A DNA stretch of 64,000 nucleotides from Actinomadura hallensis (GTDB lineage: Bacteria > Actinomycetota > Actinomycetes > Streptosporangiales > Streptosporangiaceae), in the NCBI RefSeq assembly GCF_006716765.1, contig NZ_VFPO01000001.1:1116001-1180000 (forward strand), written 5' to 3'. The stretch's first letter is position 1; each line of letters opens with the position of its first letter. Of the stretch, positions 13,219 to 33,779 are shown piece by piece. The position numbers and the translations under genes were made by a program. Under the pieces are notes generated by a model. The model worked only from the letters and a program-made list of their open reading frames with translations, was not told the DNA's origin and did not search any database.

Positions 13219-13413
13219 CTACGAGCCGTGATGCGAAGCGGAGATCACGTCGTCCAGCGGCGTGCGAATCTGGCGCACCACATCGACGTCACCGTCGCGG
13301 TATTCGCGGTAGCCGTTTCCGGCGCGCCCGGGTGAGAGCAGCCCCTGCTCCTCGTAGTAGCGCAGCAGCCGGACGCTCACGCCCGTCCGGCGGGACAGCT
13401 CGCCGATGCGCAC
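13219..13413 (-). pseudogene. Truncated MerR-family regulator (DNA-binding half only)
   Basis: The 64-residue frame starts at GTG 13413 with an AGGAGG RBS. It encodes a complete winged-helix N-terminus, MRIGELSRRTGVSVRLLRYY then EEQGLLSPGR...GYREY, typical of MerR proteins. It stops after VRQIR plus about 14 unrelated residues. MerR proteins are usually about 130 residues, with a dimerisation coiled coil and an effector domain, both missing here. A TTGACCCTCAC half-site, like the left half of MerR-type operators, sits just upstream with no matching right half. Loss of the 3' part and of a divergent target gene is my inference. Confidence 0.7.
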
Positions 13414-13609
13414 GGTGCCGCCTCCTCGACTTGACCCTCACACCTTTCTTCATCGCCTGACTCGTCGGCCGCGGGCGACAGGTCAGGAGCGTCCGCGATT
13501 CGGGCCGGTCTGGTTGAATCGCCGCGTTGTATTGCGGATCGTCGGCGGCCGGTGCTGTGATTCATCACGCCCGGCGGCGGGGGCGGTTTGCCGAGGGAGG
13601 AACACGGGC

Positions 13610-15599: not shown

Positions 15600-15689
15600 A
15601 CACATGTTTAGTGATCATGAAATGCAGACATATCTGTACGAACAGAAGCGCAGCGCCGTGTCTTGATCTCGTTTGGGGGTCAGCAGCAG

Positions 15690-16937: not shown

Positions 16938-16952
16938 GCCGATCAGATCGGC
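16938..16952. terminator. Perfect dyad between convergent fxsB and fxsT stops
   Basis: GCCGATC-A-GATCGGC is a perfect 7-bp inverted repeat centred on 16945 and contains the fxsT stop codon. It could act as a compact bidirectional terminator. Confidence 0.5.
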
Positions 16953-19480
16953 GGCGGGTCGAAGTCGGCGTCGAGCCTGCGTCCCTCCAGGAACACCTGC
17001 GCGTCGGGATGATCGAGGGTGAGGGTGCGGCGGTAGCCCTCCTCGGTCTCGGCGAACAGCTCCGCGGCCTCCTCGTCCCTGCCGAGATCCCGGAGGTTCG
17101 CCACGGTGTTCGCCGCGGCCCCCAGGGTCGTCGGATGGGTATCGCCCAGCAGTGCCTTGAGGCGTCGCAGACTCCCGGAGGAGAGGCGGAAGGCCGCCTC
17201 CGTCTCACCGAGGGCCGCCAGGTCGCTGGCCAGGTTGACGGCGACGGTGAGAGAGTAGTGGTGATCGCGGCCGAGCTTCAGCTCCAGGCCGGTCAGGGCG
17301 TCCTCGTTCATCTTCCGGGCGATCTCCGGATCACCGGTGATCCGCCGCAGGAGCGCCAGGTTCCCGGCGCAGGCGTGGTTGTACGGGTGCTCGGGGGTGT
17401 AGACGCGGGGGTAGCGGCGGACGGTGTCGTCCGCGAGCACCAGGGCGTCCTGGAACTGGCCCATCGTGCGCAGGATGTTCGAGAGGCAGATGGCGGCCGC
17501 GAGGGTGTCCGGATGGTTGAGTCCGAGCGTCCTGACGTACCGCTGGTGGATCTCCTCCGCCAGCTCCCTGGCGCGGTCGTAGTCGCCGGCCCTCCGCCAG
17601 GCGATGGAGAGGTCCTTCCCGGTGCGGAGCGTCCATGCGTGGTCGGGGCCAAGATGCTCGATGCCGAAGGCGTAGGCGTCCTCCCCGAGGTCGCAGGCTT
17701 CGGAGAAGTCCCCGCTGAGCCGCACCGCCCGTGCCAGCCCGGTGTAGATGTTGAGGTAGGAGGCGGGGGCGGGGCTCGGGTCACCGGCTCGAATCTCGCG
17801 GATGACCTGCTCAAGGAGCTCCCGAGCCTTCTTGTAGTTGCTCTTGAGACCGTGATCGAGCGCGAGGTTGTTGAGGGCGCGCCATGTGTCCCAACTTTGT
17901 TTTCCGAGCGTTGACTCGAAACGGCGCAGCGCCTCTTCGTCGATCTCGTGCGCCTGCCAGAAGTCACCACTCGACCTAAGGTCCGCTGCTCGTCCGCGGA
18001 GGGCGCGAAGCGTTGTGCCGTGGTCGGGGCCGAGAACCTTCTCAGCCGCCTGGAGCGTCTCCAGGTTGTTGATCGTGGCTTCGTCGTACTGTCCTAGTTC
18101 GCGCAGAAGGTCGCCGAACTCGACCCTCATTTCCAGTACGTTCTCGTGGTCCGATCCGGAAACCGACGACCATTCCTCGATGAAACGCTGTGCGAAATCT
18201 CGCGCCGAAGCGTAGTCAGCCGAGGTGTACAGGAATTTGATCATGTTGACGGCGAACACGCGCACCGTCGGTTCCTGGCAGTGCGCCACTCCGGAAGGCC
18301 CGAGATGCCCGAGCGCATTCAGATACTTATCCCAGGTGGTGGCGTCTGCGGGTTGGTCCGGAGTGTAGTTGGCCAGCAGTAGGTGGACTTCATGGCGGAG
18401 TCTGCCCTGCTCAGCCTCCGGCAACTCGTCGCGGACGAGGGCCTGGATCAGCCGGTGAACCTGGATGGTCCGGGCGCGAATGTCCAGTCTCGCCAAGGCG
18501 AAGCGACCGAGTTCGGCGATGGCCCTCCCCAACCGGATCGGGTCGGCGATGAGCTCGGAGAGCGCGGGGCTCAAGCCGGGAACGACCTGATTGAAGGCGT
18601 CTCGCGGAATCGGCTCCGGACCGAAGAACGCGCAGTAACGCAGCAGATCCAGAGCCTCGGGAAGTTTCTCCTCGAGGCTGGCGACAGAGAGTGCCCAGGC
18701 GGCCGTCATCGGGGCGGGATACTCGCTCGGCCGCCCTTGGGAGAGCAACTGGCTGGTGCGCTGTTTGAGAAGCCGCAGGTACTCGTCCACGGCGATGCCG
18801 GTCTCGGTGTGGAGCGCGCCCGCCTGCTCCAGGGCGAGCGGAAGATCCCCGAGTTCCTCGGCCAGTCGGTTCGCGTCGTCACGACTGATGCCTCTTGGCA
18901 CACGCCGGGTGAGGAACTCCACGCTCTCCTCGCGTGAGAACACGTCGACCGGAACCGCGTCGACGACACTCGCCCACCGGTGGTTGCGGGACGTGATCAG
19001 TACGTGGCCCGGGCCCTGGGGCAGGATGTCGATCAGCTCTTCGGGCTCGTCGGCGTTGTCGAAGATCAGCAGCCAGCTGGCGTAGGGTTCTCCTCGACGC
19101 AGTGCCTCCAACACCGCGCTGGCCGCCTCCTCGACGCCGCTCACAGACGCGGACGGAAGGCCGAGGGACGGCGCCAGGCTCGCGAGTGAAGATCGCACCA
19201 GAACGGGCTGGTCGGCCGGAATCCACCACACCAAGTCATAATCCGACTGGTACCGATGTGCGTACTCCACGGCCATCTGGGTCTTTCCCACGCCGCCCAA
19301 GCCGTGCAGAGCATGCGGCAGCACCGCCGTGACCCTGCCGCCCAGGCCCTGATGGAGCCGCTCGAGCAGATCCGCGCGCCCGGTGAAGTTCTTGTTCCGT
19401 GGAGGGATCTTGCCCCAGACCTGAGGAATTCTGGACGGCGGGCCCGGCTGTGTACTTGTCACTCGATCCCCCTGCGTCAT
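16943..19480 (-). CDS. fxsT: FxsT-like NB-ARC ATPase with TPR array (module A)
   Basis: The 845-residue STAND protein begins with a short lead (PPRNKNFTGRADLLERL), then an NB-ARC domain with Walker A GLGGVGKTQ (60-68) and Walker B LLIFDNAD (137-144). It continues with the winged-helix region and about ten tetratricopeptide repeats (for example LGPDHAWTLRTGKDLSIAW and LGLNHPDTLAAAICLSNILR). It ends DADFDPPPI, like other FxsT proteins. STAND ATPases are switches that oligomerise when their repeats sense a ligand. Unlike the protein at 26355 it lacks the SAV_2336/vWA-like N-terminus. A GTG six codons in (19462) has the better RBS (AGGGGG). It converges with fxsB and is divergent from the peptide gene at 19763. 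Confidence 0.9.
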   Translation of the reverse strand: MTQGDRVTSTQPGPPSRIPQVWGKIPPRNKNFTGRADLLERLHQGLGGRVTAVLPHALHGLGGVGKTQMAVEYAHRYQSDYDLVWWIPADQPVLVRSSLASLAPSLGLPSASVSGVEEAASAVLEALRRGEPYASWLLIFDNADEPEELIDILPQGPGHVLITSRNHRWASVVDAVPVDVFSREESVEFLTRRVPRGISRDDANRLAEELGDLPLALEQAGALHTETGIAVDEYLRLLKQRTSQLLSQGRPSEYPAPMTAAWALSVASLEEKLPEALDLLRYCAFFGPEPIPRDAFNQVVPGLSPALSELIADPIRLGRAIAELGRFALARLDIRARTIQVHRLIQALVRDELPEAEQGRLRHEVHLLLANYTPDQPADATTWDKYLNALGHLGPSGVAHCQEPTVRVFAVNMIKFLYTSADYASARDFAQRFIEEWSSVSGSDHENVLEMRVEFGDLLRELGQYDEATINNLETLQAAEKVLGPDHGTTLRALRGRAADLRSSGDFWQAHEIDEEALRRFESTLGKQSWDTWRALNNLALDHGLKSNYKKARELLEQVIREIRAGDPSPAPASYLNIYTGLARAVRLSGDFSEACDLGEDAYAFGIEHLGPDHAWTLRTGKDLSIAWRRAGDYDRARELAEEIHQRYVRTLGLNHPDTLAAAICLSNILRTMGQFQDALVLADDTVRRYPRVYTPEHPYNHACAGNLALLRRITGDPEIARKMNEDALTGLELKLGRDHHYSLTVAVNLASDLAALGETEAAFRLSSGSLRRLKALLGDTHPTTLGAAANTVANLRDLGRDEEAAELFAETEEGYRRTLTLDHPDAQVFLEGRRLDADFDPPPI

Positions 19481-19762: not shown

Positions 19763-19963
19763 ATGCATCAGGACGCCTCCCATCCTCGGACTTCCTTCGT
19801 CTTCACCAGTGACACGCTTTCGTCCGCCTCCGCCTCTGGTGAGGGACCCGGCCTTGCGCGGGTGAGGATCGAATTGGCCAGGCCGGGCAGGATCGGCGCG
19901 GAGTTCGACAATCGGTCGAGCCGACCCCTGGCGCCGAGGCCGGACGCGAGCCGGCGCTTGTGA
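19763..19963 (+). CDS. Candidate radical-SAM precursor peptide with an FDN motif
   Basis: The 66-residue frame starts at ATG 19763 with a strong GAGGAGAG RBS six bases upstream and ends 12 bases before a GC-rich palindrome. It begins MHQDASHPRTSFVFTSD. Its C-terminal part contains GAEFDNRSS, followed by a Pro/Arg-rich tail. Phe-Asp-Asn fits the aromatic-X-Asn/Asp/Ser pattern of three-residue cyclophane substrates. It also matches ASFDNNL in the FxsA-like peptide at 31752. The gene lies 2.8 kb from the fxsB at 15690 and upstream of a STAND ATPase and an MFS exporter. Coding status rests on the RBS and context; the substrate role is an inference. Confidence 0.5.
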   Translation: MHQDASHPRTSFVFTSDTLSSASASGEGPGLARVRIELARPGRIGAEFDNRSSRPLAPRPDASRRL

Positions 19964-19974
19964 TCGGCTAGCGG

Positions 19975-20127: not shown

Positions 20128-21786
20128 ATGATGACAGCGCAGTCTCCTCTCGGCTCACGAGGTCCCCATGTGGGTGCGTGCCCGTTCGTTGAAGCAGAAC
20201 GGGAGATGTTCCACGGAAGAGGCCGGGAGACTCGCGAGGTCGCCGAAGCCTGGAAACGAAACCGGCTCGTGGTGCTCCATGGGAGCGCCGGTGTCGGCAA
20301 GACTTCGCTGTTGCATGCGGGCGTCGTTCCCCTGCTGAGGGGAGAGGGCGCCCACGTACTTCCGGTGGCCGACCTGGCGCACCGGTCGTCGTTCCCAGTG
20401 GCGGCACTGGCCGAGCACGATCCCTTCAGGCTCGCCGTACTGGCCGCTTGGCACACCCCTGTGCCGCCGGTCCATGTCTCCGAGGTGCCCGTAGGGACCT
20501 TCCTGCGCCGAGACCCCCGCATGGACAGGTTCGGCAATGCGCTGCCGATACTCGGGGCCATCGACGGCGCGGAGATGCTCCTGCGCGAGTCGAAACGCAA
20601 CGAACGGCATCGTCAGAACTTCCTTGCCGAGCTGGCTCAGGCCATGCGGGAGATACCCGGTCTGCACCTCCTGCTCGTCGTCCGGGACGACATGCTCCCC
20701 GAGACGATGGACGTCGCCGATGGGCTGAGCCCAGCCGAGCCCACCGCCTACTCGCTCGGTCCCCTGGCTCCTGAGGCGGCTGGCGAAGTACTCAAGTCGC
20801 TTCCTTGCCTCCCGACCATGCCGCGGGGTGGGATCACGGCCGGTGCGTTGGTCGACGAGCTCAGGACGGTGCGGCTGCAGCACGGTGTGCAGCGAACCTC
20901 GCACGTCCACCCCGTCCTGTTACAACTGGTTCATCGGCACTTCTCGCAGCGACTGTCCGAAGATGCCGAGATCGTTCCCGAACGTCTGCGCGCCGAGGTC
21001 GACTCGGCGCTGAAGGATTTCTGCGCGCAGAGTCTCTCCACGATCGCCGCCGACCACAGCTTCCCGGCGAGCACACTGTTCCCCTGGTTCCGTTCCGCTT
21101 TCGGCGGACCGCAGGGGCGTGCGGGCGTCTCCGTTCACTCATGTGAGGACGTTCCCCGAGCCGTGCTCCATGCTCTGGAAAACTCGCATCTCATTCGTGC
21201 CCGCACGAGGGACGGAAGCCTGTACTACGAGGTGCTGCACCCCAGACTCGCCGAACCGATCACGCAACTCGGGGATCGCGCCGTTCCCATCCACAGGCCC
21301 GGGCCGCCGACGCGACTGTGTCAGGCGCACCGGGCACTGGCCGACGGCGACGCCGAACTCGCGCGCCGCCACGCGGAGGCGGCCATCCGGGCCTGCGGCG
21401 AAGGTGATCTCAGGACCAAGGCGAACGCCGCATCCTTCCTCGGCGACATCGCCTACGAGCGCGGTGACACCGATGCGGCCGTGGCGCGCTACCGGGAGGC
21501 CGCAGCGATCTTCGAGGCCGTTCCGGACAACGCAGCAGTCGGCTGGCTCCTGGCCGGAATCGGTCGAGTCCTCCTGGAGCACGATCCCGGGCAGGCGGTG
21601 CGGCAACTCCGGGCCGCTGCCGGCAGGCTCCCTCATGAGCTGTCCATCCAGACCGCTCTCGGACGTGCGCTTCTGGAAACCGGACGAACCCACGCCGCCC
21701 GTGCCGTCTTCGAGGACGTCCTCGGGCGTGACAGCAAGAACCGCGAGGCACTCCACGCAAAGAGAGCCATGTCCGGCATCGGGTGA
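20128..21786 (+). CDS. STAND-type ATPase with C-terminal TPR region
   Basis: The 552-residue protein opens with [20 protein letters not shown], the entry motif of nSTAND1-like NTPases. Walker [10 protein letters not shown] (52-60) follows. The Walker B position reads [13 protein letters not shown], with a single acid and weaker than usual, and VVRDDMLPE is the sensor-like segment. After a winged-helix region ([20 protein letters not shown]), residues from about 390 form about four TPR-like helical repeats. Such proteins act as ligand-triggered switches in signalling and conflict systems. No effector domain is fused. ATG 20128 is used; an ATG one codon later is equally possible. Confidence 0.82.
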
Positions 21787-21882
21787 ACGCCACTATCGGC
21801 CGATTGCGTAGTCCTCTGTAGGGGCCGATCTCATGAACGAGTGAACGAGGCGCCGATACCGTGTGCCATGCCCTGTGATAAC

Positions 21883-21888
21883 TATAAT
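21883..21888 (+). promoter_or_regulatory. Consensus -10 box in AT-rich intergenic DNA
   Basis: A perfect TATAAT stands in an AT-rich stretch (21865-21960) between the STAND and MFS genes, with no good -35. Downstream, GGGG-CATTT-TCCCC (near 22015-22030) forms a small hairpin right before the first possible MFS start, perhaps a leader structure. Confidence 0.35.
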
Positions 21889-22078
21889 ATTGCAAAGTCC
21901 CAAGGCAGGTTTCTGGCTTGGTTGCTTAAGGAAAACATGGGTGCTCCTTAGCGGTGATGAAACTCCTCCTCGGATACATCCCACTGAGGGAGCTGAGATA
22001 GCTGCATGTCTGTTTTGGGGCATTTTCCCCTAGATGGGGTTTGGTGTCTACTTGAGGCCCGAATGGGTGCGGAGCGAT

Positions 22079-23668
22079 GTGAATGGTAGGGGACGTCAGG
22101 AATCGACGTCTCCCGTTCCGTCGATCCCCGCCAGCAGACGGCCAGGGGCCCTGACGGGGAGACACTTTCCTCGCATTACGAAGCGGCGTCGGGATTTCGC
22201 CATCTTCTCCGGCGCGTCGGCTATATCGCAAACCGGATCGATGAGCGTGGCGGCTGCCGGGCCCCTTCTCGCTCTCGCCATCACGGGATCTCCGATCGCC
22301 GCGGGACTGGTGACCGCCGCCAGTGTGCTTCCCGCGCTTCTCCTTCAGTTGCCGGCGGGAGCGCTGGTCGACCGAGTGGATCGGCGTAAGGTGATGTGGG
22401 CGAGCCAACTGGTTCGCACGGCTTCGGCGATCGGCGCCTTCTCGTGCCTGGCCCTCTCGTGCGATTCGGTGATCGTTCTGATCGTCGCCGCGCTGGTCGA
22501 CGGCTCCTGCTCGGTGTTCTACGAAGTGGCGGAGATCGCCACGGTTCCTGACCTGGTCTCGAAGAAGTCGCTCAACCTGGCGATCGGCAGCAACGAGGCG
22601 AAACTCAACGCCTCGATGCTTTTCGGCCGTCCGTTAGGGGGCGCACTGCTCGCCGTCGCGCCGATGATTCCCTGGCTCGTGGCGGCCGGTACCTCGTTTC
22701 TATCGCTACTCGCCTTGCTGCTGCTGAGGCGTCCAAAACTCGGGGGCGTGTCCGAAAAGAGCAAGGCCGGCGTTCGGGCGGCCGAGTCGGCCGGGCGTAT
22801 CCCCGTCGTCCCCGCCCGGCCCGGGACGGGAGCCGCAGGCGAGGCCGCCGACCTGCCGCTGCGCGGCGTGCTCGCGCTGCTGATGCGCGACTCCTTCTCA
22901 CGAGCAGTGCTGACGGCCTGCGTTCTGGCGAATTTCCTCTTCCAGGTGATCGTGCTCCTCCAGATTCTGCTGGCCGAACAAGAGGGGCTTCCCAGCTACC
23001 TGGTCGGGCTTCTGCTCGCCTGTTCTGGACTGGGAGGGATCGTCGGTGCCGTTGGATCTCCCTTGCTCCTCCGCAGGTCATTTTCAGTGTCGGTGAGTTT
23101 CTGTGCGTTGGCCTGGGTCCTGCTCGCTTGGATAATAGCCGCCACCAACGACCCCGTCATCGGATTGGTCATGTGGGGCCTGTGCAGCGTTATCGGCGCG
23201 CACATCAATGTGACGTTCCGTGCCCACCAGGCGAATGCATATCCCAGTGAGTTGCTGGGCAGGGTTACGGGTATCACCCGATTTCTGAGCGTCGGGGCGG
23301 TCGGACTCGGGGCGCTCAGCGGTGGCTGGATCATTCATTTCATGGGCACGCAGGGTACCTCGGTTCTCATCGGCGTGGCTTTCTCTTGCATCGCGCTCTT
23401 CCTGCTGGGGGTGCTGCATTTCGCCACCGTGCGAAGCGCTCTTCATGCACTTGCGGTGATCGTGATCGCCTTGGTCGTGACGGCCGCCCTGCGCTTCGTG
23501 GCTGCACTGAGCGATGTCGTCGGTGCCGGCAGGAAGATCTGGAGCAGTGCTCGGGACACCGCGGTTCCGGCGTCGGGCACGCGGAGCGCGAACGCCGATC
23601 CGGTCGCCGATCCGGAAATCTGGCACGAACCTGCCGTCCGGGGCTCGGCCCCGGTGGGGAACGGCTGA
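22079..23668 (+). CDS. MFS transporter, probable exporter
   Basis: The product is about 529 residues with roughly 12 hydrophobic helices starting at FAIFSGASAISQTGSMSVAA. The loop between helices 2 and 3 reads GALVDRVDRRKVMW, the classic MFS motif A. A long cytoplasmic loop (about residues 220-265) splits the halves and a polar tail follows the last helix. The layout resembles MFS_3 exporters of siderophores, antibiotics and peptides. GTG 22079 has a GGAG RBS; an ATG at 22034 would add 15 residues but lacks one. Codon use is visibly less GC-biased than in flanking genes, suggesting transfer. Its place in module A suggests export of the modified peptide. Confidence 0.85.
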   Translation: MNGRGRQESTSPVPSIPASRRPGALTGRHFPRITKRRRDFAIFSGASAISQTGSMSVAAAGPLLALAITGSPIAAGLVTAASVLPALLLQLPAGALVDRVDRRKVMWASQLVRTASAIGAFSCLALSCDSVIVLIVAALVDGSCSVFYEVAEIATVPDLVSKKSLNLAIGSNEAKLNASMLFGRPLGGALLAVAPMIPWLVAAGTSFLSLLALLLLRRPKLGGVSEKSKAGVRAAESAGRIPVVPARPGTGAAGEAADLPLRGVLALLMRDSFSRAVLTACVLANFLFQVIVLLQILLAEQEGLPSYLVGLLLACSGLGGIVGAVGSPLLLRRSFSVSVSFCALAWVLLAWIIAATNDPVIGLVMWGLCSVIGAHINVTFRAHQANAYPSELLGRVTGITRFLSVGAVGLGALSGGWIIHFMGTQGTSVLIGVAFSCIALFLLGVLHFATVRSALHALAVIVIALVVTAALRFVAALSDVVGAGRKIWSSARDTAVPASGTRSANADPVADPEIWHEPAVRGSAPVGNG

Positions 23669-23840
23669 CGGCGGCGAAGACGTCCCGAAGTCCTGTCCGG
23701 CATCGTCCGGAATGTGTCTTAAGACGCTGTTATCGACGGCCCTGTACGTCATAGTGTGGCGGTTAGTTCACGGGCGCCCACGCAGTGTCGGCGGGCAGGC
23801 GGACCTCGTCATGCGTGGGCGGGGGCGGAGGCACGGGGTT

Positions 23841-25313
23841 GTGAGCACGTCGCTGAATGTCGAGGATCAGCATCGGCTCGTCGAGGCGATCCTGCGCATC
23901 GACGCGATGAGCGTCCGGCGGGAGCGCGCGGTCCATCTGGCGGCGCTCGAACGCGACCTCGGGCACCGTCTGCACTACGCCCAGCACAACCGGGAGATGC
24001 TGGACGTGTGGGCGCTGGTCGACGCGCTCCTCAACTACCCGGGAGCCGCGCAGGCCCTTGTCCGCATCCTGCAGACCTTCTACCCGAACAGCCTGTCAGT
24101 GCGGGCCCTCGACGAACTGGTCAGCGAGCTGCTGCCCGAGCCGTGGCTCGACCAGGCCGACCGGCGCGAGCTGCACGAGCTGATCACGTGGCTGGAGCGG
24201 GTCGATCCCGGGCTGACGCATCTCGGCAGGTTCCCGATGCTCTACCGGCGGGCGGTCGGGCCCGCCTGGCCGGCGCTGGACCGGGAGATCCGCAGCATGC
24301 ACGACGTGGTCGCTCTCCTGGAGGAGATGCCGGCCGGGCCGGAGGGAACGCCCCCGCTGCTGGTCTTCGTCAGCGATCTGGCGGAGGAGGCGGGTCACCC
24401 GACGGCTCCGGCCCTGCGCGACTGGGTGCGCCGCCAGGCGGAGACGCAGGGGCTGGACAGGGCGCTCTTCGAGCGCCGGTTCGCTCCGATCGAAGCGCGT
24501 AGAGAACCGGAGCCCTCCGAGAACTACCTGATCATCGAGTGCGCTCCCGACGCGCTGGAGGAGGACCGCTACCTGGTGACCGCGTGGCTCCAGGTGGGCC
24601 GCGAACCCGGCAGCACCCTGCAGTGCGGTGACGAGGCGCTGCCGCTCAGCCGGATCCCCGAACTGCTGGAGTGGCTCCTCACCTCGGACAGTTCCGTCGT
24701 CGGCAGGCGCAACCCGGACCTCACCATCGAGTTCATCCTGCCCCGTCCCTTGCTGGACCACCCGTTCGAGCAGGAGATGGTCAGCATCGCCGGGGTCGAG
24801 TACCGCATCGGCATCCGGTACCCGGTCGTCGTGCGGAGCCTCGACAGGATGCGCCTGGCGGCCGTCCACCCAGACTGGCGGCACAAGTGGGAGTGGCTGT
24901 CCGGCCACTCCGTCGACGCCCCCGTGTGCCTGGTGACCCGGCGCGGCGAGTACGGCAAAGAGGAACTGCTCTCCCATTTGTCGGAGTCGTCCAAGGCCGT
25001 TCTCGCCCTGGCCTTCCCGCCGTGGGGCGGCGCGAATGACGAGACGGACGAGCACTGGGTCGGGCTGGTCGCCGGCATCCCCGTCGTCGCCTGGTGCCGG
25101 GACGGGCGCGACCCCGCCCAGTTCGCCAGGGAGGTGAAGGGCCTTCTGTCAGACGACCTGATGGACCTGCCGCGCAGGGCGCTGGAACTGCGGCGGCAGG
25201 CGCTGAAGGGCGAGGGCGCCGGGGCCGGCCACCTCGGCCTGCATCTGACCCTCCTGTTCGACGATGCCGACCGCATCCCCGAGCCGTACGTGCGGCTCCG
25301 ACCCCCCGCATAG
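23841..25313 (+). CDS. VMAP protein: effector-associated domain plus VMAP-C (module B)
   Basis: The 490-residue protein starts at GTG 23841, chosen because the conserved domain starts just after it. Residues about 5-95 (DQHRLVEAILRIDAM, then MLDVWALVDALLNYPGAAQA and SLSVRALDELV) form a helical effector-associated domain. It resembles the C-terminus of the cyclase-like protein at 32288. A helical middle region leads to a VMAP-C-like domain (about 225-490) ending HLTLLFDDADRIPEPYV. VMAP is the linker of vWA-MoxR-VMAP ternary conflict systems, joining the sensor pair to EAD-tagged effectors. The next two genes encode the MoxR and vWA-like partners. Confidence 0.8.
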   Translation: MSTSLNVEDQHRLVEAILRIDAMSVRRERAVHLAALERDLGHRLHYAQHNREMLDVWALVDALLNYPGAAQALVRILQTFYPNSLSVRALDELVSELLPEPWLDQADRRELHELITWLERVDPGLTHLGRFPMLYRRAVGPAWPALDREIRSMHDVVALLEEMPAGPEGTPPLLVFVSDLAEEAGHPTAPALRDWVRRQAETQGLDRALFERRFAPIEARREPEPSENYLIIECAPDALEEDRYLVTAWLQVGREPGSTLQCGDEALPLSRIPELLEWLLTSDSSVVGRRNPDLTIEFILPRPLLDHPFEQEMVSIAGVEYRIGIRYPVVVRSLDRMRLAAVHPDWRHKWEWLSGHSVDAPVCLVTRRGEYGKEELLSHLSESSKAVLALAFPPWGGANDETDEHWVGLVAGIPVVAWCRDGRDPAQFAREVKGLLSDDLMDLPRRALELRRQALKGEGAGAGHLGLHLTLLFDDADRIPEPYVRLRPPA

Positions 25314-25335
25314 GACCGTACTTCGGAAGGCGTCC

Positions 25336-26358
25336 ATGACGACACGACCTGAGACCGGCGGCCTCGACGGAGACTGGCGCATCTACCGGGGCGACGGTCG
25401 GCCGCACGACCGGGTGCGGCGGCTGCCGCCGCCCCCTCCGTGGCGCCGCTTCAGCCCCGAGGCCGGGGCCGACGGCCGCCGGGAGCGGGACCTGCAGCAG
25501 GCGATCTCCTACCGGCCGGACGAATCGGTGATCGACCGGGTGAACGCCGCGATACTGCTGCGGCGTCCGCTGCTGGTGACGGGCAAGCCGGGGTCCGGGA
25601 AGTCGACCCTCGCGCACAACGTCGCCTACGAGCTGGGGCTCGGCTCGGTCCTGTACTGGCCGATCAGCAGCAACACCACGCTGCAGAGCGGGCTGTACCA
25701 CTACGACGCGATCGGCCGCCTCCACGAGACCAGCCTCCGCGGGGCGGGCGGCCGGGAGGACACCGCCGAACCGCCCGACATCGGCCGCTACATCCGTCTC
25801 GGGCCGCTGGGCACGGCGCTCGTGCCGGGTGACCTGCCGCGCGTCCTGCTCATCGACGAGCTGGACAAGAGCAACATCGACCTGCCGAACGACCTGCTCA
25901 ACGTGTTCGAGGAGGGCAGGTTCACCATCCTGGAGCTGCAGCGGCTCCCGGAGGAGCAGTCGCGGGTCCACGTGATGACCGCGGACGGCGGGGCCAGGGT
26001 GCCGGTCGACCGCGGTGAGGTGCGGTGCGGCAACTTCCCCATCGTGATCATCACCAGCAACGGGGAGCGCGAGTTCCCGCCCGCGTTCCTGCGCCGGTGC
26101 GTCCGGCTGTCGATCGAGCCGCCCGGCCCGGAGCGGCTCGCCGAGATCGTCGAGGCGCATCTCGGGGTGGACGCCAGGGCCGCGAGCGAGGAGCTCATCG
26201 AGGAGTTCCTGGTCCGCAGGTCGGAGGGGGCGCTCGCCACCGACCAGCTGCTCAACGCCGTCTACCTCGCGACGTCCGGGAGCAGGCCGCCCGAGACGAA
26301 GTTCAAGGAGATCCTCGACACCGTCCTCCGCCCGATCGAGCGGCCCGGCGCGGGATGA
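25336..26358 (+). CDS. MoxR-type AAA+ ATPase (module B)
   Basis: The 340-residue AAA+ ATPase has Walker A GKPGSGKST (83-91), Walker B VLLIDELDK, and VIITSNGEREFPPAFLRRC as sensor 1 and arginine-finger region. MoxR ATPases remodel vWA partners. The N-terminal segment before the P-loop is Pro/Arg-rich. ATG 25336 has a GGAAGG RBS, 22 bases after the VMAP stop. Its stop overlaps the next start (ATGA), so VMAP, MoxR and the vWA-like gene form one operon. Confidence 0.92.
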   Translation: MTTRPETGGLDGDWRIYRGDGRPHDRVRRLPPPPPWRRFSPEAGADGRRERDLQQAISYRPDESVIDRVNAAILLRRPLLVTGKPGSGKSTLAHNVAYELGLGSVLYWPISSNTTLQSGLYHYDAIGRLHETSLRGAGGREDTAEPPDIGRYIRLGPLGTALVPGDLPRVLLIDELDKSNIDLPNDLLNVFEEGRFTILELQRLPEEQSRVHVMTADGGARVPVDRGEVRCGNFPIVIITSNGEREFPPAFLRRCVRLSIEPPGPERLAEIVEAHLGVDARAASEELIEEFLVRRSEGALATDQLLNAVYLATSGSRPPETKFKEILDTVLRPIERPGAG

Positions 26359-29300
26359 CCGAGCAGTTCGCCGAGGTGATGCGGGCGCTCAGCCCGGAGC
26401 CCACGGCGGTGGAACTGGCGGACGCGCTGTGGCTCGCCGGCTGGCTCCGGTCCCACGACGGTCCGGCCGGTGAGGCCGCGCCCGGGCCGGAGGAGGCCGG
26501 CGAGAGCGGTCCCGCCGACCCGGCGGCGTCTCCGCCGAGTCCGCACGAGCCGCGGCCCGCGCCGGAGCCGGAGCCCTCGCCGCCGCGGACGGTGGAGGCG
26601 GGCCTCTACGTGGCCGACCAGGAGGTGCCCGCCACGGCCTTCCCCGTCCGGATGCCGGCGATGCCGGCGATACCGCGCTCGCTCGACCTGTCCCGCGCCC
26701 TGCGTCCGCTGCGCGCGAGCGTCCCCTCGCCGACCCGCAGGAACCTCGACGAGGACGCGACCGCGGAACGCATCGCCGAGACCGGCGTGTGCTGGCCCGT
26801 CATGGTGGCCGCCCAGGAACGCCGGCACGACCTGGCGCTGGTCGCGGACGTCGGCCCGTCGATGGTCGTGTGGCGGCAGACGGTCGAGGAGTTCCGGATG
26901 CTGCTGCAGCATCTCGGGGCCTTCCGCGACATGAGGACCTGGTACCTGGACTCGGGGGCCTCCCGGCTGTCCCTGCGCACCGGTTCCGCGTTCGGGCCCG
27001 GCGCCGACCGCGACCCCGACGAACTGGCCGACCCGACGCACCGGCGTCTCGTCCTGGTCGTCAGCGACTGCATCGGGGCGGCGTGGCAGGACGGACGGGC
27101 GGCCGCGCTGCTCGACCGGTGGGGCCGCACGAGCACCGTCGCGATCGCCCAGCCGCTGCCGCAGCGGCTGTGGCGGCGGACCGCGGCGGCCATCGAGCCC
27201 GTCCGCTTCGGCGCCTCCGGTCCGGCGGTCGTCAACGAGCGGCTCGCCGTGACCCGGACGCACCCGCAGCTGCCCGACGACCGTCCCCAGGGCATCCCGA
27301 TCCCGGTGGTCGAGCTCAGCGAACGGTGGCTGCGGTCCTGGGCGGAGATGGTCGCGCGCGGCGGCCGGAACCTCAAGGGCATGGCGCTCTTCACCGGGCG
27401 GCCGGTCGTGTTCCCGCCGCCCGCCGAGACCGGCTCCGAGGACGTCTCGCCGGAGATGCGGGTCAAGCAGTTCCGGGCGTCGTCGTCGCCGGCGGCGTTC
27501 AAGCTCGCCACGTACCTGGCGGCCGCCCCGCTGCGGCTGCCGATCATGCGGCTGGTCCAGCAGGCGATGCTTCCGTCCTCCACGTCCGCCGACCTCGCCG
27601 AAGTCTTCCTCAGCGGAATGCTGCGGACGGTGAGCCGGCCGTCCGACGGCGACGTGGAGGAGATCGTCTACGAGTTCCACGACGGGGTGCGGGAGATCCT
27701 GCTCCAGGGGCTGCGCCGGCGCGAGGTGCTCCAGGTGCTGCGCGCGGTGTGGGGCGTCGTGCGGGACCGCATCGGGTCGTCCATGGACTTCCCCGCGTTC
27801 CTCGCGGCGGTGCAGCGGGGCGAGGCGCAGCTCCCGCCGGATCTTCCGTTCGCGCAGGTGGCGGCCCAGGCGCTGGCCGGGCTCGGCGGCAGGTACCGCG
27901 AGCTGGCGAGGCGGCTGACGTCCGAGGCCCCGCCGGACGCGTCCCCGTATGAAGAGGTGGTGGACGACGACGCCGGGGCGGGGCGCGCCAGCGAAAGCGT
28001 CGGCGCCGACCCGCTGCCTGCGCCGCGCAGCGAGCTTCCTGCCCGCAACCGTGACTTCGTCGGGCGTGACCGGCTGCTCACCGGGGTCCGGGAGGCTCTG
28101 GACGGCGGGATGGCGGCGCTCCTGCCGCACTCCGAGCTGGGCATGGGCGGAGAGGGCAAGTCCAACCTGGCGCTGGAGTACGCCCACCGCCACCTCGATG
28201 ACTACGACCTCGTGTGGTGGATTCCCGCCGAGCAGACGACCTCGGCGCGGGCGGCGCTGGCGCTGCTGGGGCGTCAGCTCGGCCTGCCGGTCAACGACGA
28301 CATCAAGAGCACGGTGGACGGTGTCCTCTGGGCCCTGCGGGCGGGCAGACCCTACGGCCGCTGGCTGCTCATCTACGACAACGCGAAGGACCCCGATCAG
28401 ACCCTCCCGCTGACCCCCCTCGGAGTCGACGGGCCCGGCCTCGGACCCGACCGCCACGTCCTGGTCACCTCGCGCGAACGCGGCTGGGAACGGCACGCGC
28501 CGGTGGTCGAGATCGGCGCCTTCGAGCGGCCGGAGAGCATCGCGCTGCTCCGGCGCCTGGTGCCCCGCCTGTCGGAGACCGAGGCCGATCTGCTGGCCGA
28601 GCGCGTCGGCGACCTTCCCTTGGCGGTGCATCAGGCCGCGGCATGGCACGCGGTCACGGACGGCACCGTCGAGGACTACCTGCGCCTCTTCGACCGGCGG
28701 CTGTCGGAGCGTACCGGGGCGGACTCGTCCGGCGAGGAGCTTCCAAGGCTCCTGGCCGCGGGGGTGAGCCTGAATCTGGACCTGCTCCGGGAGCATGACC
28801 CCGTCGCCTGGGCGCTGCTGGAACTGTGGGCGGTCTTCGATCCCGAGCCGGTCTCCTGCGGGCTGCTCAGCGCCGGTGGAACGGCCGACCTTCCCGACGA
28901 ACTGCGGGAACTGCTGGCCGACGAGACGCGCCTCCGCGATGCCATGCGCGACATCTCGCGCTTCTCCCTTGCGAGATTCGACGAGGAGTCGGGCACTCTT
29001 CAGGTCCATCGGCTGGTCCGGGCGATCCTCAATGACCGGCTCCCCGAGGAGCGTCTGCGGCGGGCGAGAGAGCACGTGCATGCGATTCTCGCCGCAGCCA
29101 CTCCAAGCCAGCAGCCAACGGTGGAGTCGACGTGGGCACGCCGCTCGGAGATCACGCCGCACGTCATCCCGTCCGGTGTGGTCGAGTCGGACGACCCCGA
29201 GATCCGCAGTGTGGGCATCGACCAGGCGATGTTCCTGTACCAGTCGGGAGAGTACGAGGGCGCTCAGCGGCTGGCGGAGATCGCGCTGGGCGTCTGGCTG

Positions 29301-30512
29301 GACCGATACGGCCCCGACGACGATCTGGTGCTCGACATCTCCCGGGTCTTGGCGAACGCCTTGCGCGGCCTGGGAGACAACAGAGCGGCCGCCGAGCTCA
29401 GCGAGGACAACCTCAAGCGCACGCGCAGAAAGTTCGGCGTCGACCACCCACAGACACTCCTCGCCGCCAACGGGTTCGGTGCGGATCTGCGCTTCCGCGG
29501 GCGATTTCGCAGGGCTTATGAGATCGACCTCGAAGCATGGCGTCGCATGGGACGTCTGCACGGACCGGACGAGGTCGATACCCAACGCGCCGCCAGCAAT
29601 CTCGCACTCGACCTGCGCATCCTGGGACGGTTCCAGGAGGCGTACGAGATCGATCTGGAGGTTTGGCGAAGGCAGACGGAACTCCAGGCTCCCTACCGGC
29701 AGCGCTTCCGCACAGTGCACAACCTCGCGCGTGACCTGCACGCGTTGGGGCGGTACCACCAGGCGCAGGAAAGGCAGGCCGAGAGTCTGGGCAACCTGCT
29801 CCCTGTCCTCGGGCCAGGGCACGCATTGGTGTTGCAAGCGAAGATGAGCCACGCGGGGACGCTGCGGAAGCTCGGGCGATACGAGCAGGCGCATCGCCTG
29901 GCCACCGAGACGTTCGCCGCTCATGTCCGCCGATTCGGCGAGGAGCATCCGAACACGCTCGCAAGCAAGGTCTGCCTAGCCCTTGCCACCGAATCGATCG
30001 GGCGGCCCGCCGAGGCATTGGCGCTCATAGACGAGGCGCTGCACGGCTACAGCCGGGAGATGGGGGAGGACCACCCCTTCGTCCTTGCCTGCGCCGTCGA
30101 CAAGGCGGTCATACTCCGGAGGCTGTCAGAGGTGTACGAGGCGCAGGCGACCGACCAGGCGGCGTTGTCGAAGCTCGAAGCCGGCGTCCTCGGTACCAAT
30201 CATCATTACGCGTTGTGCGCCAAGGCGGGCCTGGCCAAGGACTCTTACCTCCTGGGCGAGCTGGATGCCGCGGTCCGGTCGCTGACTGAGGTGCGGGAAG
30301 CGTTCGTCGCCTCTCTTGGAGAGCGGCATCCGTACTCGCTGGCCGTCACGCTCAATCTGAGCCGTGCCCGCGCCGGGAGGGGAGACGGCGAGCACGACGT
30401 CGTCTCGGTGCTGACCTCGCTGGTGCACGTGCTCGGTCGTGACCATCCGGAGGTGCGGGCTGCCCAACGTGGCGAGCTGCTCGAGTGCGACATTGAGCCC
30501 ACCGCCCTCTGA
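26355..30512 (+). CDS. fxsT: vWA-like (SAV_2336-type)/NB-ARC/TPR protein, FxsT type (module B)
   Basis: The 1,385-residue protein starts at ATG 26355, overlapping the MoxR stop. The first 540 or so residues are the SAV_2336-type region, including a degenerate vWA-like fold: LALVADVGPSM (about 165) replaces the DxSxS metal site and LVLVVSDCIG (about 236) follows. An NB-ARC ATPase comes next, from NRDFVGRDRLL (about 565), with Walker A GMGGEGKSN near 598. About eleven TPRs fill the rest, to LLECDIEPTAL. It thus supplies the vWA component and a STAND switch in one chain. The NB-ARC/TPR half resembles the protein at 16943. It converges with fxsB at 30531, 18 bases away. Confidence 0.9.
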   Translation: MTEQFAEVMRALSPEPTAVELADALWLAGWLRSHDGPAGEAAPGPEEAGESGPADPAASPPSPHEPRPAPEPEPSPPRTVEAGLYVADQEVPATAFPVRMPAMPAIPRSLDLSRALRPLRASVPSPTRRNLDEDATAERIAETGVCWPVMVAAQERRHDLALVADVGPSMVVWRQTVEEFRMLLQHLGAFRDMRTWYLDSGASRLSLRTGSAFGPGADRDPDELADPTHRRLVLVVSDCIGAAWQDGRAAALLDRWGRTSTVAIAQPLPQRLWRRTAAAIEPVRFGASGPAVVNERLAVTRTHPQLPDDRPQGIPIPVVELSERWLRSWAEMVARGGRNLKGMALFTGRPVVFPPPAETGSEDVSPEMRVKQFRASSSPAAFKLATYLAAAPLRLPIMRLVQQAMLPSSTSADLAEVFLSGMLRTVSRPSDGDVEEIVYEFHDGVREILLQGLRRREVLQVLRAVWGVVRDRIGSSMDFPAFLAAVQRGEAQLPPDLPFAQVAAQALAGLGGRYRELARRLTSEAPPDASPYEEVVDDDAGAGRASESVGADPLPAPRSELPARNRDFVGRDRLLTGVREALDGGMAALLPHSELGMGGEGKSNLALEYAHRHLDDYDLVWWIPAEQTTSARAALALLGRQLGLPVNDDIKSTVDGVLWALRAGRPYGRWLLIYDNAKDPDQTLPLTPLGVDGPGLGPDRHVLVTSRERGWERHAPVVEIGAFERPESIALLRRLVPRLSETEADLLAERVGDLPLAVHQAAAWHAVTDGTVEDYLRLFDRRLSERTGADSSGEELPRLLAAGVSLNLDLLREHDPVAWALLELWAVFDPEPVSCGLLSAGGTADLPDELRELLADETRLRDAMRDISRFSLARFDEESGTLQVHRLVRAILNDRLPEERLRRAREHVHAILAAATPSQQPTVESTWARRSEITPHVIPSGVVESDDPEIRSVGIDQAMFLYQSGEYEGAQRLAEIALGVWLDRYGPDDDLVLDISRVLANALRGLGDNRAAAELSEDNLKRTRRKFGVDHPQTLLAANGFGADLRFRGRFRRAYEIDLEAWRRMGRLHGPDEVDTQRAASNLALDLRILGRFQEAYEIDLEVWRRQTELQAPYRQRFRTVHNLARDLHALGRYHQAQERQAESLGNLLPVLGPGHALVLQAKMSHAGTLRKLGRYEQAHRLATETFAAHVRRFGEEHPNTLASKVCLALATESIGRPAEALALIDEALHGYSREMGEDHPFVLACAVDKAVILRRLSEVYEAQATDQAALSKLEAGVLGTNHHYALCAKAGLAKDSYLLGELDAAVRSLTEVREAFVASLGERHPYSLAVTLNLSRARAGRGDGEHDVVSVLTSLVHVLGRDHPEVRAAQRGELLECDIEPTAL

Positions 30513-30530
30513 AGAGGCGATCAGCTGAGG

Positions 30531-31745
30531 TCAGCGGCTCTGCGCGGGCTGCGCAAGGGCGAGATCGTACTGGACGGTGCGGCCGATGTGGGTGATCAGC
30601 TTCATGAGGTCCGGGCAGTAGACGGACGGGTTGAGGTAGCCGTGGCCTTTCCGGTAGCGATGCGCGTACAGGCCTCCGCCGCAGATGTCGCGTACCGCGC
30701 ACGTCCTGCACATTGGGGCCAGTGCCGCGAGGCCGATCTGGCGCGCGACCACGCCCGGGTGGTACATCGCTTCGTCGAACCGGTGGGCGAAGACGTTGAG
30801 GCCGGTCTCCGGCGCCCCCGCATAGGAGGTCTTCAGCGTGTCGACCTGTTGGAGCGTGCCATCCGTGTCCACCACGAGCATGGCGACCGGAGACAGTCCG
30901 ATGGTCTCGCTCCGGCTCTGCCCGCCGAGAAGGAGGTTGATGATCTCCTCGAACAGGCGGACGCCCGTCTCTCTCCGCGGCGCGTGATACCAGCGGTCGA
31001 ACACCGCGATGAGCCATTCGGCATAGGGGGTGCCTCCGCCGGCGGCGGGACGGCGGGGCGGAGGGACCGTCCACGTGCCGTGGGGAAGCAGGAAGTCGAT
31101 GCGCGGGGGCCGCGTCTCCAACAGCGCCTCGTACGTCCGGAGGGGATCGTTGTCGAGGTCCACGGTGCAGAGCAGTCCGTGGTAGAGCCTCCGGTGAGAA
31201 TTCGCCAGGCGGTTCAGTCCGCGCACGACCTCGGCGTGACTTCCGCGCCCGTTGGCGTGGACCCGGTGCCGGTCGTGCCCTGCGCGGTCGCCGTCGAGGC
31301 TCACAGAGACGCCGATGTCGTGCTCATCGAGCATCGCCAGCATCTCGTCGGTGAGGAGCACGCCGTTCGTCTGGATGCACATCTCAACGGCGCAGGCTGG
31401 AGGCATGGCCGCACGGAACCGTTCGACGGCGGAGGCAAGGTTCGCCTTCCCCGCCAGTAGCGGCTCGCCCCCGTGGAGGACGACCGTCACCTTGGGGAGC
31501 TCGTGGTCTCGGGCGTGCTCGGCGAGCCTGGCGGCCGTGGCGGAGACCACCCGGGGTGGCATTGATCTGGGCCTGCGCTGCCAGGACTTGTCGGCGCTTT
31601 CGTAGACGTAGCAGTAGTCACACGCCAGGTTGCAGCGGCCGTGAATCTTCAAGACGAGTTCGGAGAAGGGCAAGGGACGCCATCCGCCGGCCACCAGAGC
31701 GGAAACGTCGAGGCCGTGAGACGGCCATTCACCGGACTCTGCCAC
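30531..31745 (-). CDS. fxsB: FxsB-type radical SAM/SPASM peptide maturase (module B)
   Basis: The 404-residue homologue of the enzyme at 15690 has the radical SAM motif CNLACDYC, HGGEPLLAGK, and a SPASM domain with MCRTCAVRDICGGGLYAHRY and SVYCPDLMK. It is expected to form an aromatic-to-backbone-carbon crosslink in a ribosomal peptide. GTG 31745 lies six bases after the stop of the FxsA-like precursor, so the two form an fxsA-fxsB operon. Both copies share the EWP...LDV.ALV..GWRP opening, supporting the chosen starts. Confidence 0.93.
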   Translation of the reverse strand: MAESGEWPSHGLDVSALVAGGWRPLPFSELVLKIHGRCNLACDYCYVYESADKSWQRRPRSMPPRVVSATAARLAEHARDHELPKVTVVLHGGEPLLAGKANLASAVERFRAAMPPACAVEMCIQTNGVLLTDEMLAMLDEHDIGVSVSLDGDRAGHDRHRVHANGRGSHAEVVRGLNRLANSHRRLYHGLLCTVDLDNDPLRTYEALLETRPPRIDFLLPHGTWTVPPPRRPAAGGGTPYAEWLIAVFDRWYHAPRRETGVRLFEEIINLLLGGQSRSETIGLSPVAMLVVDTDGTLQQVDTLKTSYAGAPETGLNVFAHRFDEAMYHPGVVARQIGLAALAPMCRTCAVRDICGGGLYAHRYRKGHGYLNPSVYCPDLMKLITHIGRTVQYDLALAQPAQSR

Positions 31746-31751
31746 GAACGG

Positions 31752-31973
31752 TCAGCCGGGGGTGACTGCCGACGGGTCCGTCAGGTTGTTGTCGAAGGAG
31801 GCCAGGACGGGCCGAGGATCACGGCGCTCGGCGCTCGCACGCCGCAGGGCCGCGTTCAGAACCGACCCTTCGGCCGTTCGTGCCGCGGCCAGTTCGCAGA
31901 GGGTGGGAGGCGTCCAGGCGAAGGAGACCACATGGTCACTGGATTCCGTTGTGCTGCCATGAGCGACCAGCAC
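31752..31973 (-). CDS. fxsA: FxsA-like cyclophane precursor with non-canonical C-terminus
   Basis: The 73-residue peptide starts at GTG 31973 with a GAGGGGGAG RBS and lies directly upstream of fxsB. The middle part (LNAALRRASAERRDPRPVLA then SFDNNL) matches the usual FxsA pattern of a short helix, Ala-Leu-Arg-Arg and a Pro-Val-containing lead into the motif. FxsA peptides normally end with FxSxx at the very C-terminus. Here the motif reads FDNNL, with Asn in place of Ser, and nine further residues (TDPSAVTPG) follow. It would therefore have to be trimmed or be recognised differently. Position next to fxsB makes the substrate role likely. Confidence 0.75.
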   Translation of the reverse strand: MLVAHGSTTESSDHVVSFAWTPPTLCELAAARTAEGSVLNAALRRASAERRDPRPVLASFDNNLTDPSAVTPG

Positions 31974-32287
31974 GGCCGTCTCCCCCTCTTGTCCCGCCTA
32001 ATAGGAAAAGTGTCGCGTTTCCTCTGTGGTCTCAGGGGCACCGGTTAAGCCGCGACCTGATGAACTATACGGATCCGCGGTACCGGGATGCGAGGCGATG
32101 CGGCGGTTCCCGCGCCGAAAGTTTCCCCCGGCCACGCCAATGTCCGGGACAGTCCGGGACAGTCGGTGTTTCGCGGGGCGAAACAAGCACGCCGGTAATG
32201 CGCGCTGAGTTACCTTGACTGTGACGACCATCGCCCTTCCGGGTGGGTGGGGGCCAGTCGTCGGCGGCGACCATCGGTGAGGTGCTC
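31974..32287. promoter_or_regulatory. Divergent control region of fxsAB and the cyclase-like gene, with palindromes
   Basis: The region holds overlapping dyads TGTCC-G-GGACA and GTCC-G-GGAC in the tandem stretch 32141-32161. It also holds TGTTTCGC-GGG-GCGAAACA at 32167-32185, a perfect 8-bp inverted repeat. These look like operators between fxsA (leftward) and the cyclase-like gene (rightward). No gene is supported in between. Confidence 0.5.
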
Positions 32288-33316
32288 GTGACGGAGACCG
32301 TGCGTCCGGCTTCGGGGCAGTGGCGGCCGAGGGGAATGTGCTCGTTCTTGGTCTGTGATCTCGCTCGGTTCAGTGACCCGTCTCGCGCCGATCCGGTGCG
32401 GACGCGGGTGCGGAAGGCCATGTACGAGGGGCTCGAGCGGAGCCTGGCGGACCTCGGGCTGCGGCCGCACGAGTGGTACCACGAGGACCGCGGGGACGGG
32501 GTGATGGTCGTCCTGCCACCGGAGGTCGCGGTGGATTCGCTGCTGACGACGGTGGTGGGGCGGCTGCGCGCGGAGGTGCGGCATCACAACGGGGCTGCGA
32601 GCGAGGCGGCGCAGATGCGGCTGCGGGTGGCCGTCAACGTGGGGGAGGCCGAGTCGGACGGGCGCGGCATCGTCAGCACCGCGTTGACGCACGCGTTCCG
32701 GTTGCTGGACGCGGAGCCGCTCAAGGAGGCGGTGGCCGGGGCCGAGACCGCGATCGCGGTGATCGTGTCGCGCCGGGTGTACGAGGACGTGGTCAGCCAT
32801 GGCCGGGGGCTGGTCGATCCAGGCGACTACTACCCGGTCGAGGTGAAGGTCAAGGAGACCTCCGACCAGGCGTGGATCACGGTGCCGGGGGCGCGGCCGC
32901 CTCGGCCGGCCGGGGTGCCCGCGTCGGCGGGCCCGGAGGGTCGGGTTGCGCCGGCGGGGCAGGAGGGTCCGGTCGGCGGAGGCGGCGGGCGTCCGCCGAT
33001 GGCGGCGGACGTGCGGCCGTCGTCGCTGTTCCGCATCGTGGACGCCCTCCTCGACATCGAGCGGTTCCGGGCCGAGCGCGGCCGCGACCAGCTGGTCGGC
33101 GCGTTGTCGGCGGACATCGCGGGCGCGGTGCCGCGGGCGGCGGAGGCGCGGGCCGACCTGTACGCCATCGTGCGGACGTGCCTGGACTATCCGGGCGGTC
33201 TCCAGGAGTTCCTCCAGGCCGTCCGGGGGTTCGTGGGGGGATCGATGGCGGTGCGGCGTCTGGAGCAGACGATCGCCGGGTCGCTGATGCCGCGGCAGGA
33301 CGACTCCTGGCCCTGA
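32288..33316 (+). CDS. Nucleotidyl-cyclase-like protein with C-terminal effector-associated domain
   Basis: The 342-residue protein starts at GTG 32288 (GGTGAGG RBS); a GTG at 32243 is the longer option. Residues about 15-200 resemble a class III nucleotidyl cyclase. Both metal aspartates appear to be present, in FLVCDLARFS and in DRGDGVMVV. GIVSTALTHAFRLL keeps the Arg of the catalytic VNxAARL motif but has Thr for Asn by my alignment. A Pro/Gly-rich linker leads to a helical domain (LFRIVDALLDIERF, then ADLYAIVRTCLDYPGGLQEF) like that at the N-terminus of the VMAP protein. Such domains pair homotypically, so this is the likely effector of module B, making a nucleotide signal or acting as a dead sensor. 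Confidence 0.78.
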   Translation: MTETVRPASGQWRPRGMCSFLVCDLARFSDPSRADPVRTRVRKAMYEGLERSLADLGLRPHEWYHEDRGDGVMVVLPPEVAVDSLLTTVVGRLRAEVRHHNGAASEAAQMRLRVAVNVGEAESDGRGIVSTALTHAFRLLDAEPLKEAVAGAETAIAVIVSRRVYEDVVSHGRGLVDPGDYYPVEVKVKETSDQAWITVPGARPPRPAGVPASAGPEGRVAPAGQEGPVGGGGGRPPMAADVRPSSLFRIVDALLDIERFRAERGRDQLVGALSADIAGAVPRAAEARADLYAIVRTCLDYPGGLQEFLQAVRGFVGGSMAVRRLEQTIAGSLMPRQDDSWP

Positions 33317-33754: not shown

Positions 33755-33779
33755 GGCTCGTACTGCAACCTGTTCTCGT

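Follow-up and report, generated by a model that had tools for sequence, protein, structure and literature searches.

A putative FxsA-type precursor with an internal F-D-N core, and another precursor sharing that core, in a probable VMAP-MoxR-type island of Actinomadura hallensis

The FxsA peptides form a widespread family named for a serine residue and a free C-terminus (FxSxx-COOH), and their genes adjoin those of the FxsB radical SAM/SPASM maturases. In a 64,000-nucleotide stretch of the Actinomadura hallensis genome, referred to here as the window, a small open reading frame next to an fxsB gene reads FDNNL at the place of this motif, with asparagine for serine, and nine further residues follow. 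An earlier note on this DNA considered that the enzyme may accept asparagine and an internal site, or that a protease may remove the tail, and the locus raises the further question of whether the peptide is a working precursor at all. We consider it likely that this peptide, P1, functions as a precursor of the FxsA/triceptide type with asparagine as its third core residue, that it is crosslinked by the adjoining enzyme, FxsB1, and that it belongs to an island of the VMAP-MoxR type.

The P1 gene and the limits of the FxsA family

P1 is encoded on the complementary strand at positions 31752..31973, starts with GTG and comprises 73 amino acids. FDNNL corresponds to residues 60-64 (31782-31796), the core F60-D61-N62, which is the predicted crosslink site, lies at 31788..31796, and the tail TDPSAVTPG, whose length and sequence vary among orthologues, extends to the C-terminus (31755..31781); FDNNL and the nine residues after it are as the earlier note had read them. 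The gene has a good ribosome-binding site, the DNA 5' of the start being AGGGGGAGAC-GGCC-GTG, and this stretch is identical or nearly so before the start codon in the printed plus-strand P1 orthologues. Only 6 nt separate the P1 stop codon from the start of fxsB1 (30531..31745, same strand), and the direct coupling that had been proposed extends to other genomes, with a P1-like peptide ending at most 200 nt from the aligned FxsB1 start in all 19 loci of the FxsB1 set (L072-L090). A scan for promoters and terminators around P1, which is uninformative for a GC-rich actinomycete, found none.

Against the FxSxx-COOH model TIGR04268, P1 scores 16.9 bits, below the cut-off of 28, and its end departs from the C-terminal F-x-S-x-x of that model. 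When the whole 6.7-Mb genome was scanned, with 150 of 535 candidates scored, P1 was the top match (E 0.07) and nothing exceeded the cut-off; a canonical FxsA elsewhere in the genome, acting as the true substrate of FxsB1, was rejected on this basis. Eight of 18 aligned P1 peptides match TIGR04268 at E values up to 1, the best at 9.7e-06, and a profile of the P1 orthologues (A1) matches two peptides that lie above the TIGR04268 cut-off, at G064:C20:168296 (E 3.8e-6) and G016:C3:97680 (E 2.3e-6). By these profile comparisons, P1 is homologous to accepted FxsA members.

Defining FxsA peptides by a C-terminal FxSxx, as had been done for this locus, proves too narrow. There are 26 places in the genus above the TIGR04268 cut-off, and none of the 21 for which C-termini were printed carries an exact FxSxx-COOH end: 18 carry residues beyond the five of the motif, two stop at its fifth position with alanine as the third residue and one is a residue short (examples are FDSSLTGPPANATG, FQSVIDEDLK, FENTPSTLTEGTDVGERR, FDAFVEGEPAAR and RFDAAI). 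Two further Actinomadura FxsBs do have neighbours with exact ends, FQSYI at L095 and FNSFI at L131. Beside the best 80 of 156 FxsB1 relatives, the peptides include FDNSTPP (Nonomuraea), FNNQNGG (Micromonospora), FIN (Nocardiopsis) and FDNRM (Actinocorallia), as well as F-x-Q forms in Nonomuraea and Streptosporangium; classical ends, FNSFI and FKSSI among them, occur there too. On an FxsB tree of 120 sequences, for which the third core residue was assigned by eye and 99 of the 120 rows were labelled, asparagine at this place needs seven changes, at least six of them forced by well-supported branches; for the island FxsB2 rows, the label N presupposes that the second precursor described below, P2, is their substrate, and the ambiguous peptides at L240, L267, L271 and L295 were left unlabelled. 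Since other FxsBs likewise adjoin peptides with FxN cores and tails, and such features are seen again among members above the family cut-off, P1 is not an oddity of one locus, and the recurrence together with the lack of exact ends among the 21 printed members leads us to regard it as one case of a recurring variant. The family also includes a conserved asparagine type with internal cores. Among the papers that a literature search listed, none concerned an FDN-type FxsA, and the study of Phan and Morinaka (2022) on a prevalent actinobacterial maturase group may already cover asparagine-type substrates. A few FxsA-like cores carry histidine in place of phenylalanine, reading HQSSV or HDSMI, at L242 and L243 in Streptosporangium and at G062:C78:10114 (L158).

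The island that carries P1 is present in 21 of the 345 genomes of the order that were sampled, 65 of which belong to Actinomadura, and 20 of the 21 fall within that genus. The remaining one, the metagenome bin G112, is assigned to another genus, but its contig matches the window at 99.7% identity over 7.6 kb and is probably also of Actinomadura origin. Profile A1 yielded strong matches (E <= 4e-13) in 20 of the 345 genomes, the P1 of the 21st (G028) being recognised by its adjacency to FxsB1, so that one and the same set of 21 genomes carries both P1 and P2. The P1 core is F-D-N in 20 island genomes and F-D-S in one (G043). When only the copies adjoining FxsB1 are considered, there are 19 FDN, one FTN and one FDS, with the G046 copy cut by a contig end; the FTN copy is from G052, in which two upstream copies carry FDN. 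FDN in P1 is therefore not absolute. In this same genome (L089), three tandem P1-like peptides, ending at 1532, 1784 and 2158, precede a single FxsB1, their cores being FDN with a long tail, FDNKM and FTNHV, and both short copies end directly after the five-residue core.

Among 18 aligned orthologous P1 peptides the phenylalanine is invariant and the aspartate and asparagine are each conserved at 90% or more, on a mean column identity of 53%, compared with 36% for aligned P2 peptides. Alignment A1 holds 18 peptides from 17 genomes and omits the P1 of G028, G062, G064, G112 and G046 and the third G052 copy, while alignment A2 holds 17 P2 peptides and omits those of G052, G060, G062 and G112; the omitted members were inspected separately for the FDN and tail counts. 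The core invariance in the 18 peptides, dN/dS values of 0.24-0.51 in 11 P1 pairs and an FDN copy in 20 of 21 genomes together indicate that P1 is more than a chance reading frame. The number of residues after FDNxx is zero in six of the 21, one in three and 7-12 in 12. The asparagine and the internal site, to which the earlier note had drawn attention at this locus, are thus family traits, being kept in the P1 and P2 of the 21 island genomes (FDN in 20 and 21 of them, respectively, with P1 tails of 0-12 residues); the features themselves stand, and they are no isolated oddity.

A second precursor and the two maturases

A search for small open reading frames conserved near FxsB2 orthologues revealed a second, unannotated FDN precursor, P2, on the forward strand at 19763..19963, between fxsT2 and an nSTAND1 gene. 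It starts with ATG, comprises 66 amino acids, contains ...GLARVRIELARPGRIGAEFDNRSS... and carries its core, F48-D49-N50, at 19904..19912, with 16 residues after it. BLAST detected P2 homologues near FxsB2 in 12 other loci and the P2 profile (A2) gave strong matches (E <= 1.1e-9) in 21 of the 345 genomes. An internal F-D-N is present in P2 of all 21 island genomes, with D and N both invariant in the alignment, and 10-27 residues follow the core, except in G044, where 38 and 17 residues follow its two motifs. Seven P2 pairs gave dN/dS values of 0.21-0.92, the highest being that of a very close pair. A chance open reading frame was rejected, since the charted islands carry homologues in the corresponding position and G052 carries one on another contig. 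NCBIfam models gave no match when run against the 17 aligned P2 peptides, and this precursor, missed entirely by those models, is the main addition of the present work.

The P1 profile matches seven P2 peptides (E 0.0004-0.009) and the P2 profile eight P1 peptides (E 0.0004-0.008), and the two precursors may be distant homologues, the shared FDN contributing to these cross-matches. The P2 of G044 (L074) has two FDN motifs and that of G060 (L305) has FDN followed by FGN, and both are possible multi-core precursors, to judge by their motifs. An additional P2-like match lies off the island at G009:C55:8335-8496 (in L307; E 2.1e-7).

Two proteins of the genome exceed the TIGR04269 cut-off of 370 bits, and both lie within the window: FxsB1 (404 amino acids, 496.6 bits) and FxsB2, encoded on the forward strand at 15663..16937 (463.4 bits). 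Reading of the translations by eye located the radical SAM/SPASM cysteines in CNLACDYC and CGGG stretches, and on the FxsB tree the island FxsB1 and FxsB2 fall into different clades. The FxsB family is, we presume, that of IPR026335. The XyeB model, which we take to stand for XncB, and the GrrM/OscB model score 133 and 98 bits on FxsB1, with cut-offs of 450 and 310, so the enzyme families differ. The second-best model for both FxsBs is that of the cyclophane maturase YhhB (NF041707; 364 and 375 bits), yet these scores are below its cut-off of 445, and YhhB is described as working on Tyr and His motifs (PMC11002830).

The pairing of peptides with enzymes was approached through protein distances in 19 loci, namely the window, L072-L083, L085-L089 and L302. 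L084, which is without P2 and nSTAND1, was left out, neither FxsB2 of L302 nor FxsT2 of L089 was used, and the P1 of L085, the P2 of L089 and the FxsT2 distance of L081-L083 are absent; the backbone control includes large VMAP distances for L073 and for L089, and a MoxR distance between L081 and L083, that look like faults of ORF extraction. Under one backbone control, all 21 tested pairs remained significantly correlated, so that partial correlations of this kind are loose, and weight was therefore given only to the comparison in which the other FxsB was held constant. P1 distance then correlated with FxsB1 at r 0.82 and with FxsB2 at r 0.38, and P2 distance with FxsB2 at r 0.42 and with FxsB1 at r 0.05. 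We therefore read the pairs as P1 with FxsB1 and P2 with FxsB2, a probable assignment based on these distances. With two such natural pairs sharing a core within a single island, substrate choice, serine versus asparagine and end versus internal site, becomes directly testable.

The predicted crosslink and the fate of the tail

P1 resembles the FxsA/FxsB systems, and with them the MscB-type triceptides (TIGR04268/TIGR04269), in its leader homology, in an adjoining FxsB above the family cut-off and in an aromatic residue with a presumed partner two residues on. The island peptides differ from them in carrying asparagine, not serine, within an internal core. The triceptide enzymes XncB and OscB form Phe-x-Asn and Trp-x-Asn cyclophanes. 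According to PMC11002830, the bond made by XncB and OscB runs from Phe C4 to the Asn C-beta, and that made by MscB (IPR026335) from Phe C4 to the Ser C-beta. Given this chemistry, the formation of a Phe-x-Asn bond by an FxsB would be a short step, and by analogy an F60-N62 cyclophane in P1 is likely, with the same predicted Phe C4 to Asn C-beta bond as for XncB/OscB. The FDS core of G043, which occurs inside the FxsB1 clade, suggests that the same type of enzyme handles both serine and asparagine.

In the mechanism that we propose, FxsB1 would probably be translated from the same transcript as P1 and would read the conserved P1 leader, ELxxxxxxxGSVLxxALRRAxxE. By comparison with the related enzymes, it would then join Phe60 to the beta carbon of Asn62, yielding a three-residue F-D-N cyclophane with a loss of 2 Da. 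Residues beyond FDNxx would be irrelevant to FxsB1, which would allow tail length to drift, and P2 with FxsB2 would constitute another pair within this island, acting on an identical core.

Alternatively, the tail may be a follower whose removal by a protease exposes FDNxx as the C-terminus, which would accord with the six of 21 P1 peptides that end exactly there; we consider this possible but rather unlikely. No HExxH-domain protein (TIGR04267) was found in the whole genome, nor a match to the FxsC C-terminal domain, for which control genomes gave no match either, and Pfam peptidase domains are lacking in the neighbouring kinase and in eight island proteins, a set without FxsB2, GNAT and P2. 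The TPR part of the nSTAND1 protein gave a sub-cut-off NCBIfam match to a C39 peptidase model. Moreover, the 12 P1 tails of 7-12 residues show no shared cleavage motif, although those of four close relatives have an LTEDD/LAEDD start in common, and all 21 P2 peptides carry tails of at least 10 residues. The protease suggested in the earlier note, in the sense of a dedicated enzyme, thus finds no support, and a housekeeping protease is possible.

Less probable again is a reading in which the phenylalanine is activated and asparagine is not its partner, FxsB1 oxidising the peptide elsewhere or forming another bond, for example to Asp61, with FDN kept for target recognition. Aspartate is indeed kept as strictly as asparagine in both precursors, and in other FxsA members this place holds other residues. 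Against this, the crosslinks of XncB, OscB and MscB join residues i and i+2 (PMC11002830), and across the FxsB clades the third residue is S, A, N or Q while the spacing is constant, which favours the Phe60-Asn62 bond. That P1 is instead a decaying relic beside a retained fxsB, its FDN drifted from FxS, could be argued from its low TIGR04268 score and from FDS in G043 and G064, by which serine may be ancestral, and is dismissed as highly improbable in view of the conserved FDN, the dN/dS values, the ribosome-binding stretch and closeness to fxsB kept in P1 orthologues, and the second precursor with the same core.

The island and the possible role of its peptides

The gene order of the island is GNAT, FxsB2, FxsT2, P2, nSTAND1, MFS, VMAP, MoxR, T1, FxsB1, P1 and EAD2. 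FxsT2 (16943..19480, complementary strand) is an NB-ARC/TPR protein (NF040586, 1001 bits), and is followed on the forward strand, beyond P2, by an nSTAND1 NTPase with C-terminal TPRs (20128..21786), an MFS transporter (22034..23668), a VMAP protein with EAD2, VMAP-M0 and VMAP-C domains (23514..25313), a MoxR-like AAA ATPase (25264..26358) and T1 (26355..30512), in which a SAV_2336 domain precedes NB-ARC-like and TPR parts (NF041121, 460 bits; NF040586, 865 bits). Beyond P1, a protein with a C-terminal effector-associated domain, EAD2, is encoded at 32243..33316, also on the forward strand. A Ser/Thr kinase with C-terminal WD40 repeats (13406..15064, forward strand) lies just before the GNAT gene and has one match in the charted loci, of 39% in L077, the loci hardly extending that far.

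Order and strand are kept in 16 loci (L072-L083 and L085-L088) as far as their contigs extend, with P2 in L073, L074, L077 and L082 and P1 in L081, L083 and L085, all missed by BLAST, supplied by direct inspection and profile matches. L084 (G064) is without a P2, nSTAND1 or GNAT match, the island of L089 (G052) is rearranged or fragmented, and the partial contigs L090 and L302-L305 are consistent with the island order where they overlap.

FxSxx-type peptides have been tied to VMAP-MoxR systems with AP-ATPase/TPR proteins, and the peptide proposed to act as a toxin or signal (PMC7159879). As portrayed in that source, the peptide modules of these ternary systems are like the island in combining VMAP, a MoxR ATPase and an AP-ATPase with TPRs, as well as a small, fast-diverging peptide and a radical SAM/SPASM enzyme. 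A VMAP-C protein and an AAA protein are present here in conserved order, and the third protein matches SAV_2336, for which no Pfam vWA model was listed. The island differs in that its FDN peptides lie outside the four types given there (FxSxx, RxD, acidic and FtsH-associated), in having two peptides and two maturases and no metallopeptidase found, where a metallopeptidase is part of the described core, and in the fusion of its NB-ARC/TPR unit to the SAV_2336 protein (PMC7159879). In our reading, the island would represent a VMAP-MoxR-type conflict system with two NB-ARC/TPR proteins, and the matured peptides would most likely be its signal, sensed by the TPR parts.

Strain variation bears on this role. 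A near-identical strain (L302, G112:C53) was compared with window positions 17065-33842; the comparison concerns a single metagenome contig, which is of low coverage by its title and may be chimeric, and VMAP, nSTAND1 and MFS differ as well as the peptides. DNA identity per 250 bases is 95-100% across VMAP, MoxR and T1 as far as its NB-ARC part, and likewise in EAD2. It falls to 86-92% in the T1 TPR part and to 64-85% over FxsB1 and P1 (96-97% at the C-terminal end of FxsB1); the middle of the FxsT2 TPR part stands at 74-87%, and the lowest values, 40-56%, belong to the surroundings of P2 and to the MFS gene. The corresponding amino acid differences are 48% for P1, 58% for P2, 66% for MFS and 16% for FxsB1, 9% and 17% for the TPR parts of T1 and FxsT2, 4% for FxsT2 NB-ARC, 7-14% for nSTAND1, 6% for VMAP and 0-1% for MoxR, T1 SAV/NB-ARC and EAD2. 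Peptides, FxsB1 and TPR parts therefore differ on a backbone that is mostly 99% identical, suggesting exchanged peptide-sensor cassettes. For the close pair L072-L073, the distances are highest for P2 (0.66), followed by the nSTAND1 N-terminal part and MFS (each 0.37), the TPR and NB-ARC parts of FxsT2 (0.23 and 0.13), P1 (0.08), FxsB1 (0.06) and FxsB2 (0.05).

When each TPR part was compared under control for the NB-ARC part of its own protein, r was 0.41 between P2 and the FxsT2 TPR part and 0.28 between P1 and the T1 TPR part, and the cross peptide-TPR pairs gave r 0.38 and 0.33. Since the cross pairs are about as high as the matched ones, these correlations do not support specific peptide-sensor matching. 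We can propose only tentatively, as an unlikely possibility, that the island is a polymorphic peptide-recognition locus, in which two FDN cyclophanes serve as TPR ligands and peptide, maturase and sensor are swapped together on a constant VMAP-MoxR backbone, providing strain-specific self/non-self or kin signalling. Should peptide and TPR sensor truly covary, this would offer a handle on what FxsA-type peptides do, a matter on which the literature consulted offers predictions. The MFS transporter, among the most variable of the island proteins, is about as variable as the peptides, with a median amino acid difference of 62% between loci, and is a candidate exporter of the mature peptides.
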